From Bacteroidota bacterium (GTDB taxonomy: Bacteria; Bacteroidota; Ignavibacteria; Kryptoniales; JAKASW01), in the NCBI GenBank assembly GCA_021825585.1, contig JAKAGT010000003.1, positions 124,001 to 188,000 on the forward strand: DNA of 64,000 bases, written 5' to 3'. Under the pieces are notes generated by a model. It was not told where the DNA came from. It made no database searches and saw nothing but the letters and a program-made list of their open reading frames with translations. Below are positions 27,441-47,126 of the stretch, piece by piece. A program made the position numbers and the translations under genes. Position 1 is the stretch's first letter; each line of letters opens with the position of its first letter.

Positions 27441-27587
27441 AAAGGAATCGACCAGATGTATCCTCAAGTGAACCTGGGGCGTCGTGAACTCAGCTTTCAG
27501 CGTTTCGAATATAGCCCCGGCCCTGTTAACTTACTTGTGCATAGTCCGTTAATTGTTTCATGAAAAATCCGCAGGCTTTCAGGAACC

Positions 27588-27920
27588 ATGGCGCGAACTA
27601 AAGTATATTATGTTTACATAACGGCCAGCTTTTCACGTGTTCTATATGTGGGGATGACTGATAATTTGTGCAGACGAGTCTACGAGCATAAGCACAAGGT
27701 ATTTAAAGGGTTTACAAGCCGTTACAATGTCGACAGGCTGGTTTATTACGAAGAGACTAACGACGTATGGGTGGCGATTAACAGGGAGAAGCAGTTGAAG
27801 AGATGGAGACGTGAAAAAAAGATCGCACTGATCGAGTCGATAAATCCGGCGTGGGAGGATTTGTATCGGGATCTTTGCGAAGGGGGATTGATAATCCCGA
27901 CCGAGATCATTTCAACGTAG
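27588..27920 (+). CDS. GIY-YIG nuclease-like protein
   Basis: 110 residues forming a single GIY-YIG domain of the short UPF0213 type. YYVYITAS supplies the first motif and VLYVGMTDNLCRRVYEH the second, including the conserved arginine; the downstream NREKQLKRWRREKKIALIE contains the usual glutamate. AGGAACC precedes the ATG. The wider domain cuts DNA, but functions of these short proteins are mostly unknown. It is flanked by copies of one palindromic repeat family (26771-27440 and 27969-28023), which is notable. No other coding partner is adjacent. Confidence 0.85.
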   Translation: MARTKVYYVYITASFSRVLYVGMTDNLCRRVYEHKHKVFKGFTSRYNVDRLVYYEETNDVWVAINREKQLKRWRREKKIALIESINPAWEDLYRDLCEGGLIIPTEIIST

Positions 27921-43295: not shown

Positions 43296-44540
43296 TCATA
43301 ATTTCTCGTCATAAATTTGCGGCAATGCATTGTTTTTGTCCGCTTGGCTTAGTCCCGCAGCATTCATATCGGATGCCTCATTCGTAGGATCACTATCCGT
43401 GTTCCAGATCATATCAGATAACAAATCAAGATGATGCCTTATTACTTTCACCGGGTACCCTGAATAGTGGAGTTCATTGACGTCCCTGGTTTTGTGACCC
43501 AATAACTTCTTACAAAAGTATGGTGATAATCCCGTGATCTGCAAGAGCGTATTCACCGTCTTGCGCAGATCGTGGAACTTGCCCCTTATACCGGTGACGC
43601 TTCTGACGTTTGCCCAATATTCCTCGATAACCTCCTTGCTCAGGAATACCGGCGTTTCATACCCTTTCATCTGAAGGAGCTTCAAAGCCTCCATGCTCTT
43701 CTTCCCTAAGGGCACTTTCCTGTCTCGGTTCCCCTTAGTTACGGGCGGAAAAACGATAATCTGCTTAACAAAATCAATCCACGACCACTGTAGCTTTAGC
43801 CCATCGCTCAACCTCATCCCTGTCATGAGATACAGGATGTAGACAGCCGTGACTTCTTCGCCGTACAGGTTTGACATCGTGTTGAGAATCAATTCGATGT
43901 CTTCAGGTTCGAAAAAGTTTGCCTCCACTGAATCCTCTGGCACCTTTTCAAATCCTTTGAACGGATTTTCTTTTGGTGCATAGCCCTGGTCTCCTGCCCA
44001 CGAGAACGCCGAGCGATAGATGCGTAAGTGTCCATTGATTGTCTGTCCGGCGAGGTTCTTCTGTGTCCCGTCTTTCATGGTGCGTATCTGTAGCAACAAT
44101 GTATCCTGGAATTTCTCTACGTGTCTCTTATGGACTTCGAACAGTTTAAGATCACCCACCACTTCGATCAATGAGTTGAAGCTGTGGACCACATTGCTGC
44201 AATACATTGATGAACGTCTTCGTATCTTTAGGTGATTGGAGAATTCGTCTCTCAGATTCGACAACCGCATCTTCATTTGTCCCGGTTTTTCAATTCGCTG
44301 GAAGATATTAATAGCTCTGGATATTGCCACCATACGGTCTGTCGTTTTCAGCGATCTACGAAAACGTCCCTTCGGACCTCTGCCTATTTGTAGGTCGATC
44401 CAAAATGTCTTCTTTTTACCGCACGTACGTAGGCTGTCTTCGATTTGCCTTGTTGTAATACGTTCCAATAATTTCATAAACAATCCTATTTTTGGACGAG
44501 TGTGGTTGTCTTCTCGGCTGTGTCTGGTAGAGATGTTCAA
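43296..44540 (-). CDS. Tyrosine recombinase / integrase
   Basis: 414 residues from a TTG that overlaps the upstream HTH stop; ATG at 44477 is an alternative start. The N-terminal SAM-like core-binding domain covers ~80-200. The catalytic domain from ~215 carries TGMRLSDGLKL (R), TKGNRDRKVPL (K), KFHDLRKT (H-x-x-R), KLLGHKTRDV (H) and ELHYSGY (Tyr nucleophile), so all active-site residues are present. Such enzymes integrate and excise phages, islands and conjugative elements at att sites, often in tRNA genes. With the small HTH gene it forms an int-xis pair. AT content is higher than in the neighbouring glycosidases, which suggests transfer. Confidence 0.92.
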   Translation of the reverse strand: MNISTRHSREDNHTRPKIGLFMKLLERITTRQIEDSLRTCGKKKTFWIDLQIGRGPKGRFRRSLKTTDRMVAISRAINIFQRIEKPGQMKMRLSNLRDEFSNHLKIRRRSSMYCSNVVHSFNSLIEVVGDLKLFEVHKRHVEKFQDTLLLQIRTMKDGTQKNLAGQTINGHLRIYRSAFSWAGDQGYAPKENPFKGFEKVPEDSVEANFFEPEDIELILNTMSNLYGEEVTAVYILYLMTGMRLSDGLKLQWSWIDFVKQIIVFPPVTKGNRDRKVPLGKKSMEALKLLQMKGYETPVFLSKEVIEEYWANVRSVTGIRGKFHDLRKTVNTLLQITGLSPYFCKKLLGHKTRDVNELHYSGYPVKVIRHHLDLLSDMIWNTDSDPTNEASDMNAAGLSQADKNNALPQIYDEKL

Positions 44541-44862: not shown

Positions 44863-46368
44863 TAGGACGGTGTGTAAATTAGTTTGTGGAAATTGAAGAG
44901 GGTAAGGCGCATAATCCTTTAAGATAATTATGAAATGAAAAAAGAAAGGAGTTATGCACCATGTACCCCGAAAACAGCGAAGAGAAAAATCTTGTCGAGA
45001 CGCCGCATCCGGATGGAGAAAGCAATCTTGATCCGTCCGAAGGATCCTGTGGACAGGCAATGGAGCTTTCGTAGAACGGAAGGATAAGTGAAGTCGAAGA
45101 ACTTTTCTCCCGCTCATTCTTATGAAGATTGGATATGCGGGATGCCGCAAGGCGGCAAAGGAGATCATGAAAGAACCCGGAAGAATGTTTGATATGTTTA
45201 GAATAGACATAAAGAGAGCGTGCGAGAAAGCGGTGGAACAGGTTATATCACTGGAGCTGACGGCACACCTTGGCAGAGACCGGTATGAAAGGAAGACGAC
45301 AGACGACAAGAATTATAGAAACGGTAGTTACCAAAGAGCCTTCACAGCTAAAGGAATCGGAAACCTTCAGTTCAAGGTGGCTCGTGACCGGAACGGCGAG
45401 TTCCATTCTAAGGTGATAAACCGATACGAGCGGTATGAGGAGGAGATAGCGCACGATGTGCAGGCGATGTTCCTTTCGGGGATGTCGACCAGAAGCATAG
45501 AACTGTTCTCGGAACATCTTCTGGGCCGGAAGATCTCATCTGGGGAAGTATCGAAGATAAACGGTGAACTCATTGCAGCGGTAGAAAAGTGGCGAACGCG
45601 TTCACTTGCTGGGCTGAAGATTGAGTATCTGATGATGGACGGTGTTTTTCTTCAAATTTAGGGTGAAAAGGGTGGTAGACGGCGCGACACAGATGGAAAT
45701 CAAGAGGATACCTATGCTTGTTGTGATCGGAGTAACGTCCACCAAGCAGAGAGTTTTCCTGAACATCCAGCAGGGTGACAAAGACTCCGCCACTACATGG
45801 CGTGAGATATTTAAAGACCTTAAGCAACGAGGACTCGAAGCATCCGATGTGAAACTCGGTATCATGGACGGGCTGCAAGGGCTTGAGAAAGTCTTCTGTG
45901 AGGAATTTCAAAAGGCAAAAGTTCAGAGGTGCATCGTACACGTGATGCGTAATGTTACAACGAAAGCACCGAAGGCGCTTCACCAGGAAGTGACCGACTC
46001 GCTCCGTGACATCTTCTACGCCACTGACAGAAAAACAGCAATTGAGAGATACGAGGAGTTTGTTAAGAAGTACGATGGCACTATTCCCAGCGGAGTTGCT
46101 TCCCTCAAGCGCAGCATTGAATCGTGCCTTACGTTTTACGATTTCCCGGAGGAGGAGTGGGTAAGTTTACGAACTACTAACATCATCGAGCGTGTCAACA
46201 AAGAGTTCAAGCGACGAACCCGACCTATGGAGATACTAGCGAGTGAAAGGTCCGCTTACGTTATCCTCGGCTTCGTTGCCTACAAGATGGAGGCAAACTG
46301 GAAATGTGCGCCTTTCGGCAAAAGTAATTTGCCGATCCTCAGAAATTTTACACAAATCTCTTGACATT
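44863..46368 (+). mobile_element. IS256-family insertion sequence (approximate ends)
   Basis: The outer parts contain inverted motifs: TGTGTAAAT on the left (about 44869) and TTTTACACA on the right (about 46346). Between them lies one transposase gene of ~1.25 kb, giving an element of ~1.5 kb, as expected for IS256 relatives. Target duplication could not be identified. A short open frame at 44961-45074 with a good ribosome site precedes the transposase, but its product is not recognisable. Confidence 0.65.
45122..46364 (+). pseudogene. IS256-family (Mutator-type) transposase, frameshifted
   Basis: The first part (45122-45661) has HLGRDRYER, NYRNGSYQR, VARDRNGEFHS and IEYLMMDGVF with the first catalytic Asp. 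The second part (from the 45642 frame) continues with VDGATQMEIKR, KLGIMDGLQGLEKVF (second Asp), KAKVQRCIVHVMRN and RTTNIIERVNKEFKRRTRPM (Glu). The two frames meet at a T5 run (45645-45649); removing one T would restore a ~410-residue protein, the normal length. IS256 transposases are not usually made by frameshifting, so this copy is probably inactive, or the T run is a sequencing slip. Confidence 0.85.
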
Positions 46369-46526: not shown

Positions 46527-46881
46527 CGGCTAATCGGAACGACAGCAGGTCGCGGTAGAAACGACAGGGCCAAGGCATATGCGCTGAGCGTGAAAGATGT
46601 GTACGTGTATCCACTGGTTAAGGACTTCCGCGCTCGGCCTTATTTGATTACTTATACTCTTAAGAGTCGAAACTTGCAATATGCCGAATGCTCCTCTGGC
46701 GCGGTAAGCCGTTCCCGACGAGGGAGCCCATCGACCGAGATAGAGATACGCCTTCTTAATTGTAATATGATGTCCGACTTCGTAGGCCATTTCTCATGGT
46801 GATCATATGGCGATATTCTGACACAAATCCGGACCGCGCCATACATCCCAGTGCTACGAAATGCTGCAATATGAAACGGAA

Positions 46882-47001
46882 CGGCCCTTTTTAGCCAGTT
46901 CCAAGCCCCCTCGTTACCTTTTTTCCTGACTCATAATCAGGGGGTCGGGGGTTCTCCGCCGGAGGCGGATACGCCTGCGGCGCAAAGTCCCTCAGGGCCC
47001 A
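46882..47001 (+). pseudogene. Broken elongator tRNA-Met(CAT) with hairpin insert in the T loop
   Basis: CTGACTCATAATCAG (46926-46940) is a perfect 4-bp anticodon stem with the CTCATAA loop. GGGGTC and GGGGGTTC follow as variable loop and 5' T arm. AAGTCCCTCAGGGCCCA (46985-47001) supplies the 3' T arm, acceptor strand and discriminator A. Between the T-arm halves sit ~30 extra bases formed of two small hairpins (TCCGCCGGAGGCGGA and TACGCCTGCGGCGCA). The 5' side keeps only GGCCCT and TTAGC-CAG; the D arm is replaced by unrelated, longer sequence. It cannot fold as a tRNA. It may be a remnant attachment site of the nearby integrase. Confidence 0.55.
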
Positions 47002-47126
47002 CATCTAAACCCCACAACCCAGTACGGTTTGCAAGATTTTTTTGTCGGGTTCACTTCGGTGACCGCACCTAAAGAAATTCCATTCCGATCATATTCTGAT
47101 ACGAAGTTAAAAACCTGACTTGTGAA

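Follow-up and report, generated by a model that had tools for sequence, protein, structure and literature searches.

Positions 46925–47001 of the window, the 64,000-nucleotide stretch of DNA analyzed here, are the 3′ portion of a gene for elongator tRNA-Met(CAU), from the anticodon stem to the 3′ end, with the T loop split by a pair of GC hairpins. We give a probability of roughly 0.57 to the reading that this is the core of a dead attachment (att) site which the 30-nt hairpin pair entered later, and that it is one case of a wider process in which tRNA genes would be cut in association with small GIY-YIG nucleases and their surplus copies sealed by hairpins, here acting in trans. The anatomy of the copy, the association of small GIY-YIG genes with tRNA genes, the tracking of tRNA isotype by closely related nucleases and the occupied and empty states of one site were observed directly and are described below.

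Structure of the interrupted tRNA-Met copy

The window copy agrees with an intact tRNA-Met gene of the host genome (C1:32–105, L007) at 45 of 47 tRNA bases, in register, and both mismatches belong to one swapped pair, G27-C43 in the host and C27-G43 in the copy. An earlier note on this sequence had called the tRNA parts exact, which holds except for this pair. When the copy was searched against the host genome, its 29-nt half was recovered with E 9.9e-7 (97%) and its 3′ end with 17/17 bases; a second intact gene is present at C44:7105–7178. The intact tRNA-Met for which the earlier note advised a search is thus present in the host, and an unrelated 3′ half is excluded.

Immediately after T54-T55-C56, an insert of exactly 30 nt interrupts the T loop, TTC-AAGT; it is capable of folding into two 15-nt hairpins, as had been described from the sequence (Table 1). 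Folded as single-stranded DNA, the insert gave z = −3.9 and −4.3, with 0 of 200 shuffles as good; the best such fold is one long hairpin in which the two units pair together, an alternative to two hairpins. A GTAG tail is absent from the insert as read directly. A strict double-hairpin scan of the window returned three pairs, none of the T-loop family, and missed the target owing to its mismatch.

The copy was not called a tRNA by ARAGORN, and Rfam gave no match in the feature at gathering score or at E≤10. An intron or known structured RNA at this position was rejected, there being no Rfam match in the window. A degenerate full-length tRNA with a decayed D arm was also rejected: the likeness of 46882–46924 to tRNA positions 1–26 was matched by 63 of 1000 shuffles, and an att arm explains the sequence.

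Table 1. Features of the tRNA-Met copy and its surroundings (positions in the window)
Feature	Positions	Strand	Basis
Tyrosine recombinase (PF00589), type unlike that at related att sites	43296..44540	-	
IS256-family transposase, two overlapping frames, between integrase 43296-44540 and att site	45122..46364	+	
P-side att arm of tRNA-Met integrase element	46780..46924	+	alignable with arms at other scars
att core, first part: anticodon arm, variable region, T stem 5′ strand, TTC	46925..46954	+	host tRNA-Met comparison
Anticodon arm of tRNA-Met copy	46925-46941	+	sequence read directly
Variable region of tRNA-Met copy	46942-46946	+	sequence read directly
T stem 5′ strand	46947-46951	+	sequence read directly
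T-loop TTC	46952-46954	+	sequence read directly
Hairpin insert, 30 nt	46955-46984	+	sequence read directly
Hairpin 1: 6 bp, perfect, loop GGA (NNA type)	46955..46969	+	
Hairpin 2: 6 positions, one A.C mismatch, loop TGC (TNN type)	46970..46984	+	
att core, second part: T-loop rest to discriminator	46985..47001	+	17/17 = host tRNA-Met
T-loop remainder AAGT	46985-46988	+	sequence read directly
T stem 3′ strand	46989-46993	+	sequence read directly
Acceptor 3′ strand	46994-47000	+	sequence read directly
Discriminator A	47001	+	sequence read directly
Probable P′-side att arm, degenerate	47002..47110	+	likeness to G009 and C1 downstream DNA

A predicted tRNA-Met attachment site

Sequences flanking the copy were compared with the host genome and 60 related genomes and then aligned. 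The upstream arm is common to tRNA-Met 3′ halves in the host (C36, C81), G004 and G009, with the same starting base, which bears out the earlier suggestion of an att scar on tRNA-Met; it also precedes the 3′ half of another tRNA in G003 (L066) and in host C30. The 130 bases upstream of the core scored 42 against the C36 att arm (maximum of 500 shuffles, 24). The D arm, earlier described as replaced, is simply absent, and the DNA upstream of the core is the att arm. Downstream, the arm matches the DNA after the G009 tRNA-Met scar at 70% and that at C1 at 77%, over spans that include the shared tRNA end; without the tRNA part it scored 23 against C1, a value reached by 3 of 500 shuffles. Similarity is strong for the upstream arm and modest for the downstream one.

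A tyrosine integrase ORF is located ~107 bp downstream of the intact C1 tRNA-Met, and likewise after the G009 scar. The integrase 2.3 kb from the window copy, which had been proposed as the cognate enzyme, would not be an obvious partner of the att site, because it is only 29% identical to the C1 integrase (326 aa), while the C1 and G009 integrases are 89% identical to each other (241 aa). As judged from these sequences, the window feature is the dead att site of a tyrosine-recombinase element predicted to integrate at tRNA-Met; it is called dead because there is no cognate integrase at the site, the nearby integrase being of another type. A single core flanked by both arms points to a tandem junction or a stranded attP-like site.

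Among the five arm-sharing tRNA-Met scars only that of the window carries the hairpin; the T loop is intact in C81, G004 and G009, and the T arm is decayed in C36. The view that a hairpin repeat came later fits the scars with an intact T loop, but a lone hit by an ordinary repeat does not fit, as double hairpins recur at this T-loop position in tRNA copies from several phyla and many of the broken copies adjoin small GIY-YIG genes. Two tRNA-Lys scars in G048 carry a hairpin, one with an integrase ORF beside it, and together with the window copy they suggest that integrase-made surplus tRNA pieces can be hit too. No GIY-YIG gene or remnant was found near the window att copy, the sole hit in the window below E 1 being 27564–27917. 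That hit, a small GIY-YIG ORF, falls in a clade without tRNA-linked members (0/36).

Recurrence of the hairpin pair at the T loop

Of 294 genomes of the class, 17 contained the pattern GGNTTC-TCCGCC-NNN-GGCGGA, at 35 places in all, with 0 for a reversed-pattern control, and a longer pattern scanned in named genomes gave 77 stretches. T9SS-like protein tails are in line with a probable placement of the host near Ignavibacteria or Chlorobi. The class scan and the named-genome scan together yielded 101 distinct hits (L091–L197), which were fetched by hairpin pattern, so that their counts are not unbiased. At least two recognized hairpins were present in 70 of these, and the 31 with fewer than two were excluded from the analysis of flanks, in which T-arm-like was defined as at least 4 of 5 stem pairs plus the following RA. 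T-arm-like flanks were present in 37 of the 70 double-hairpin hits, where 1.7 were expected from shuffled flanks, and were absent from 33. For 36 of the 101 hits a similar intact tRNA (local score at least 20) was present in the same locus, sometimes at 10–60 bp and sometimes at ~280–300 bp.

The tRNA-related cases came from Ignavibacteria, several Patescibacteria lineages, Margulisbacteria, Omnitrophota, Bacteroidetes, Acidobacteriota and one Nanoarchaeota; none was among the pattern hits in Verrucomicrobia, Chloroflexota and Zixibacteria. Phage carriers were considered and rejected on the following results. Nine viral contigs matched the pattern, and none of the five contexts viewed (four GGCTTC, one GGATTC) was T-arm-like by eye; no phage record matched the L145 nuclease, the single nuclease tried. 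Several hits unrelated to tRNA read as coding sequence. In Kaiserbacteria, the 30-nt double hairpin is situated in apparently the same protein gene, as judged by eye, in L148, L160 and L163, and adds 10 residues in frame.

A functional tRNA with a T-loop hairpin, which the earlier note had named as an observation that would speak against its reading, was not clearly seen: after the flanks were joined, 0 of the 101 hits gave a tRNA by ARAGORN, a test that is weak where just the first of two unlike hairpins was recognized and removed. Some broken copies still score as tRNA; Rfam gave 25 matches on 16 related loci, all tRNA, of which two are in the broken copies of L220, and ARAGORN called a tRNA-Cys in L254.

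To describe the insert, 87 distinct 30-nt pairs adjoining GG(N)TTC were collected, with both strands pooled and the set partly query-selected. Perfect pairing is seen in 160 of their 174 hairpins, and compensating changes occur at stem pairs 2 and 3. The first loop ends with A and the second begins with T (NNA/TNN) in 79/87 30-mers (46/53 ignoring strand); the loops run NNA and then TNN, and therefore the two units are arranged head to head, a design to which the window loops, GGA/TGC, conform. The fixed stem is partly a result of the query, and inserts reached through nuclease genes show other stems in the same design, such as TCCCGAAGGGA-CTCCTTTGGAG.

Small GIY-YIG genes adjoining tRNA genes

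The ~290-bp gap between an intact tRNA and a broken copy is an ORF of ~80 aa with a GIY-YIG domain. In the host genome, tRNA-Pro and tRNA-Arg each have two such units in tandem behind them, and tRNA-Gln also has such a unit; in each case the first is no more than ~12 bp from the tRNA end. Among 136 distinct small GIY-YIG ORFs, from loci that beyond the first 30 were hand-picked from among the matches listed, an intact tRNA was present within 160 bp of 66 and directly upstream within 60 bp for 38, many ORFs starting 0–60 bp after the tRNA. An NNA-loop hairpin was found within 350 bp of 45/66 tRNA-linked and 32/70 other GIY-YIG ORFs, a weak separation among loci that were partly hairpin-selected. 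In G007:C20 (L250), four small GIY-YIG genes lie within 9.4 kb, with no tRNA detected on their strand in the stretch.

Nuclease lineage tracks tRNA isotype among close relatives. In a tree of 126 domains, which left out 10 of the 136 that were shorter than 70 aa, and in which tandem second genes up to 760 bp from a tRNA were labeled linked, a clade of 36 contains 0 tRNA-linked members, and on the other side of a 99/98 branch 69/90 are linked; the 21 rows on that side with no tRNA detected come in part, perhaps, from cut loci. The nearest neighbor from another locus is at the same anticodon for 37/69 (shuffled mean 3.9, maximum of 500 shuffles 11), a signal that is lost when neighbors are at ≤55% identity (9/69, shuffled mean 4.0, maximum 12). 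In 51 GIY-YIG proteins, Y6, Y17, G19, R27 and H31 are invariant and E63 is present in at least 90%. The model of the tRNA-Gln protein had pLDDT 94, with Foldseek hits to UPF0213, Slx1 and I-TevI, and the tRNA-linked nuclease model is nearer UPF0213/Slx1 than I-TevI.

The order of the unit is intact tRNA, GIY-YIG gene and a partial tRNA copy broken by GC hairpins in the D, anticodon or T loop. No displaced copy with all spanned loops intact was found among those judged; the copy was not judgeable in about eight of the 66 tRNA-adjacent loci (L147, L186, L219, L226, L227, L261, L298, L305). The L222 copy is broken by substitution, without a hairpin, and many displaced copies have no 5′ acceptor strand. 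The intact tRNA adjoining the nuclease keeps its loops, and a seal alone thus fails to account for its being spared.

Explicit T-loop inserts right after TTC are present in 16/66 tRNA-adjacent loci, 9 of them reached without a hairpin query and 7 found via the hairpin pattern; one of the 16, L260, read short. Replacement of the anticodon arm is the rule in tRNA-Gln units of the host's own genus and frequent for Pro and Val. By eye, the hairpin is within ~6–27 nt of the copy's ORF-facing edge; the window hairpin is ~30 nt from the core edge. Where one isotype is served by different nuclease lineages, different loops are broken: in tRNA-Asp, the T arm (L225, L303, L314) versus the anticodon arm (L229), and in initiator Met, a hairpin in the D loop (L220, L234) versus the anticodon loop (L269, L291). 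L312 (initiator Met, T-arm hairpin) is an exception to the link between loop and lineage, as it is in an 8-row clade with L220 and L234.

Tandem copies were observed at two tRNA-Pro genes. In L166 (VGWB01000199.1, 4266–4760), tRNA-Pro is followed by four tandem 3′-end units of 74–77 bp, each with a T-loop double hairpin, separated by two alternating spacers. In L110 (G007:C21), two tandem units come after it at a spacing of 108 bp; their hairpins are in the anticodon and T regions, and no ORF lies between them.

tRNA-Gln precedes prs in most genomes examined, and this site was compared at 25 of 30 loci, with distances measured to a motif just inside prs. In the 13 own-genus genomes, seven have an ORF between tRNA-Gln and prs, in G009 prs is preceded by a GIY-YIG frame that an internal stop interrupts, and five have no ORF and a gap of 154–408 bp, some with visible hairpin scars. 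In the 12 genomes from outside the genus, nine have 41–110 bp and no ORF, G033 has an ORF, and two have no upstream tRNA-Gln. The site thus shows occupied, decaying, scarred and empty states, which is how a homing site would be expected to look under gain, decay and loss.

Proposed cutting and sealing of tRNA copies

The GIY-YIG enzyme SegB of phage T6 makes cuts within tRNA genes, the motif RAWTSGAAC being present at 23/83 sites; according to the passages considered, the motif is not strictly required in vitro, and donor alleles of such homing enzymes are usually cut poorly (PMC13096335). In our own comparison, the complement of this motif, GTTCSAWTY, fits the common T loop GTTCGAATC, in the middle of which the hairpins sit; the tRNA-Met T loop GTTCAAGTC departs from the motif at two positions. 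From SegB cutting in tRNA, the fit of the motif and the poor cutting of donor alleles, we therefore propose that a loop is cut, that repair restores the tRNA but leaves a copy behind, and that a hairpin abolishes the site in this copy.

In this scheme, minimal GIY-YIG nucleases (UPF0213/SLX1-like) would live beside specific tRNA genes as small homing-type units. The nuclease would cut inside a tRNA loop, D, anticodon or T, depending on nuclease lineage, and repair would leave a rebuilt tRNA plus a surplus copy, which would persist once its target is destroyed by a hairpin, often a pair, that fills the site of the cut. Cutting and sealing of this kind may also act in trans on surplus copies left by other elements. 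At the window, an integrase element would have left the att core, from the tRNA-Met anticodon stem to the 3′ end, and a 30-nt head-to-head hairpin pair would later have entered the T loop between C56 and R57; we infer action in trans here because no GIY-YIG gene or remnant is near the feature.

In its general form, to which we give just short of an even chance, the proposal is one of widespread minimal mobile elements: isotype-specific GIY-YIG nucleases of ~80 aa would insert at a tRNA, rebuild it and leave a hairpin-sealed displaced copy, and the sealing would reach surplus tRNA pieces of other elements, including that of the window.

Comparison with known elements and alternative explanations

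In the open-licence PMC literature, no description of small GIY-YIG genes beside bacterial tRNA with hairpin-broken copies was recognized. Among the closest known systems is that of T4/T6 SegB, a free-standing GIY-YIG homing endonuclease whose gene, as here, adjoins tRNA genes (PMC13096335, PMC2988022). Further likenesses, as far as the passages considered go, are that the motif for its cuts inside tRNA genes fits T-loop sequence (PMC13096335) and that SegB drives segmental amplification of the tRNA region (PMC13096335, PMC2988022). In contrast to the present system, SegB is phage-borne and no favored tRNA isotype is reported in the passages considered (PMC13096335), nor are hairpin-broken tRNA copies mentioned in the parts consulted (PMC13096335, PMC2988022). 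The present proteins are chromosomal, ~80 aa long and nearer UPF0213/SLX1 than I-TevI.

Islands and scars of tRNA tyrosine integrases, as described in the relevant passages, resemble the window in having a core that is the 3′ part of a tRNA, an intact tRNA elsewhere and shared arms, whereas in the window the T loop of the core is broken by a hairpin pair, arms are present on both sides and the cognate integrase is absent (PMC9897764). GC double hairpins that are thought to be mobile are also known from fungal and algal mitochondria, and the cryptophyte paper mentions tRNAs with palindromes; these elements differ in being mitochondrial, and the passages considered contain no nuclease gene with a displaced tRNA copy (PMC5910586). 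GIY-YIG/LAGLIDADG insertions in CPR rRNA share with the present units overlapping bacterial groups and sites at the tops or bases of stem-loops, but they are in rRNA rather than tRNA, and GIY-YIG was judged in the passages considered to be sparse, with homing not regarded as its means of spread; the word tRNA occurs 0 times in the main text of that paper (PMC11270868).

The hairpins could instead be mobile REPIN-like palindromes that favor TTC^RA or hairpin tips and owe their movement to a Y1 (RAYT/IS200-type) transposase, with insertions in tRNA surviving just in surplus copies and the link to GIY-YIG genes being indirect; we regard this as rather unlikely. REPINs are short palindromes arranged head to head, as in the present hairpin pairs with their NNA/TNN loops (79/87, 46/53 ignoring strand). 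In the passages considered, REP/REPIN sequences with their RAYTs are also like the present hairpins in being short, GC-rich, dispersed and able to sit in genes, but differ from them in that the present hairpins have no GTAG tail, favor one T-loop bond and are associated with GIY-YIG genes (PMC3733652). The host genome contains 10 Y1_Tnp matches, 3 of the 10 loci have a hairpin, ACTGCC-NNN-GGCAGT, that shares the inner core GCC..GGC, a Y1 transposase in L350 (G000:C18) is flanked on both sides by an array of 5-bp hairpins with mostly gaa or ttc loops, and the hairpins under study are found outside tRNA too. However, no TCCGCC-type hairpin is present within 350 bp of the seven examined of the ten Y1 genes, the hairpins nearby having other stems; the window insert is without the GTAG tail; and movement by a Y1 transposase leaves unexplained why the judged GIY-linked copies are broken and why different loops are broken in different nuclease lineages.

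A role at the RNA level, in which the hairpins would prevent a surplus tRNA end, transcribed along with the real tRNA, from folding together with it or being processed in the same way, and the nuclease gene would be a passenger in the tRNA transcript, seems improbable to us. Structure is indeed kept while stems vary, as seen in the covariation of pairs 2 and 3 and in unrelated stems such as TCCCGAAGGGA, and many nuclease ORFs begin 0–60 bp after the tRNA; yet many copies are without the 5′ acceptor strand, 0 of the 101 flank-joined hits gave a tRNA, and the tracking of isotype by nuclease lineages is left unexplained. Neutral decay, with a random palindrome acquired by an att scar and no connection to the other loci, would account for the absence of the hairpin from other tRNA-Met scars in the genus and for the A.C mismatch by which hairpin 2 is already decaying. 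It is contradicted, however, by tRNA copies from several phyla in which the 30-nt design recurs at this T-loop bond, and we consider it very improbable. We prefer the reading of a dead att core entered later by a hairpin pair that is tied to the GIY-YIG units.

Implications

If this reading is true, the tRNA genes of many uncultivated bacteria would host a family of tiny selfish nucleases, which may explain many of the small genes labeled 'GIY-YIG family' in such genomes. The hairpin-bearing loop would be a visible record of where each nuclease may cut, giving dozens of ready nuclease/target pairs, and the system would offer a natural example in which GC palindromes are linked with a nuclease that is not a Y1 transposase. 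It would also serve as a warning that partial tRNA copies in such genomes may not all be integrase scars.
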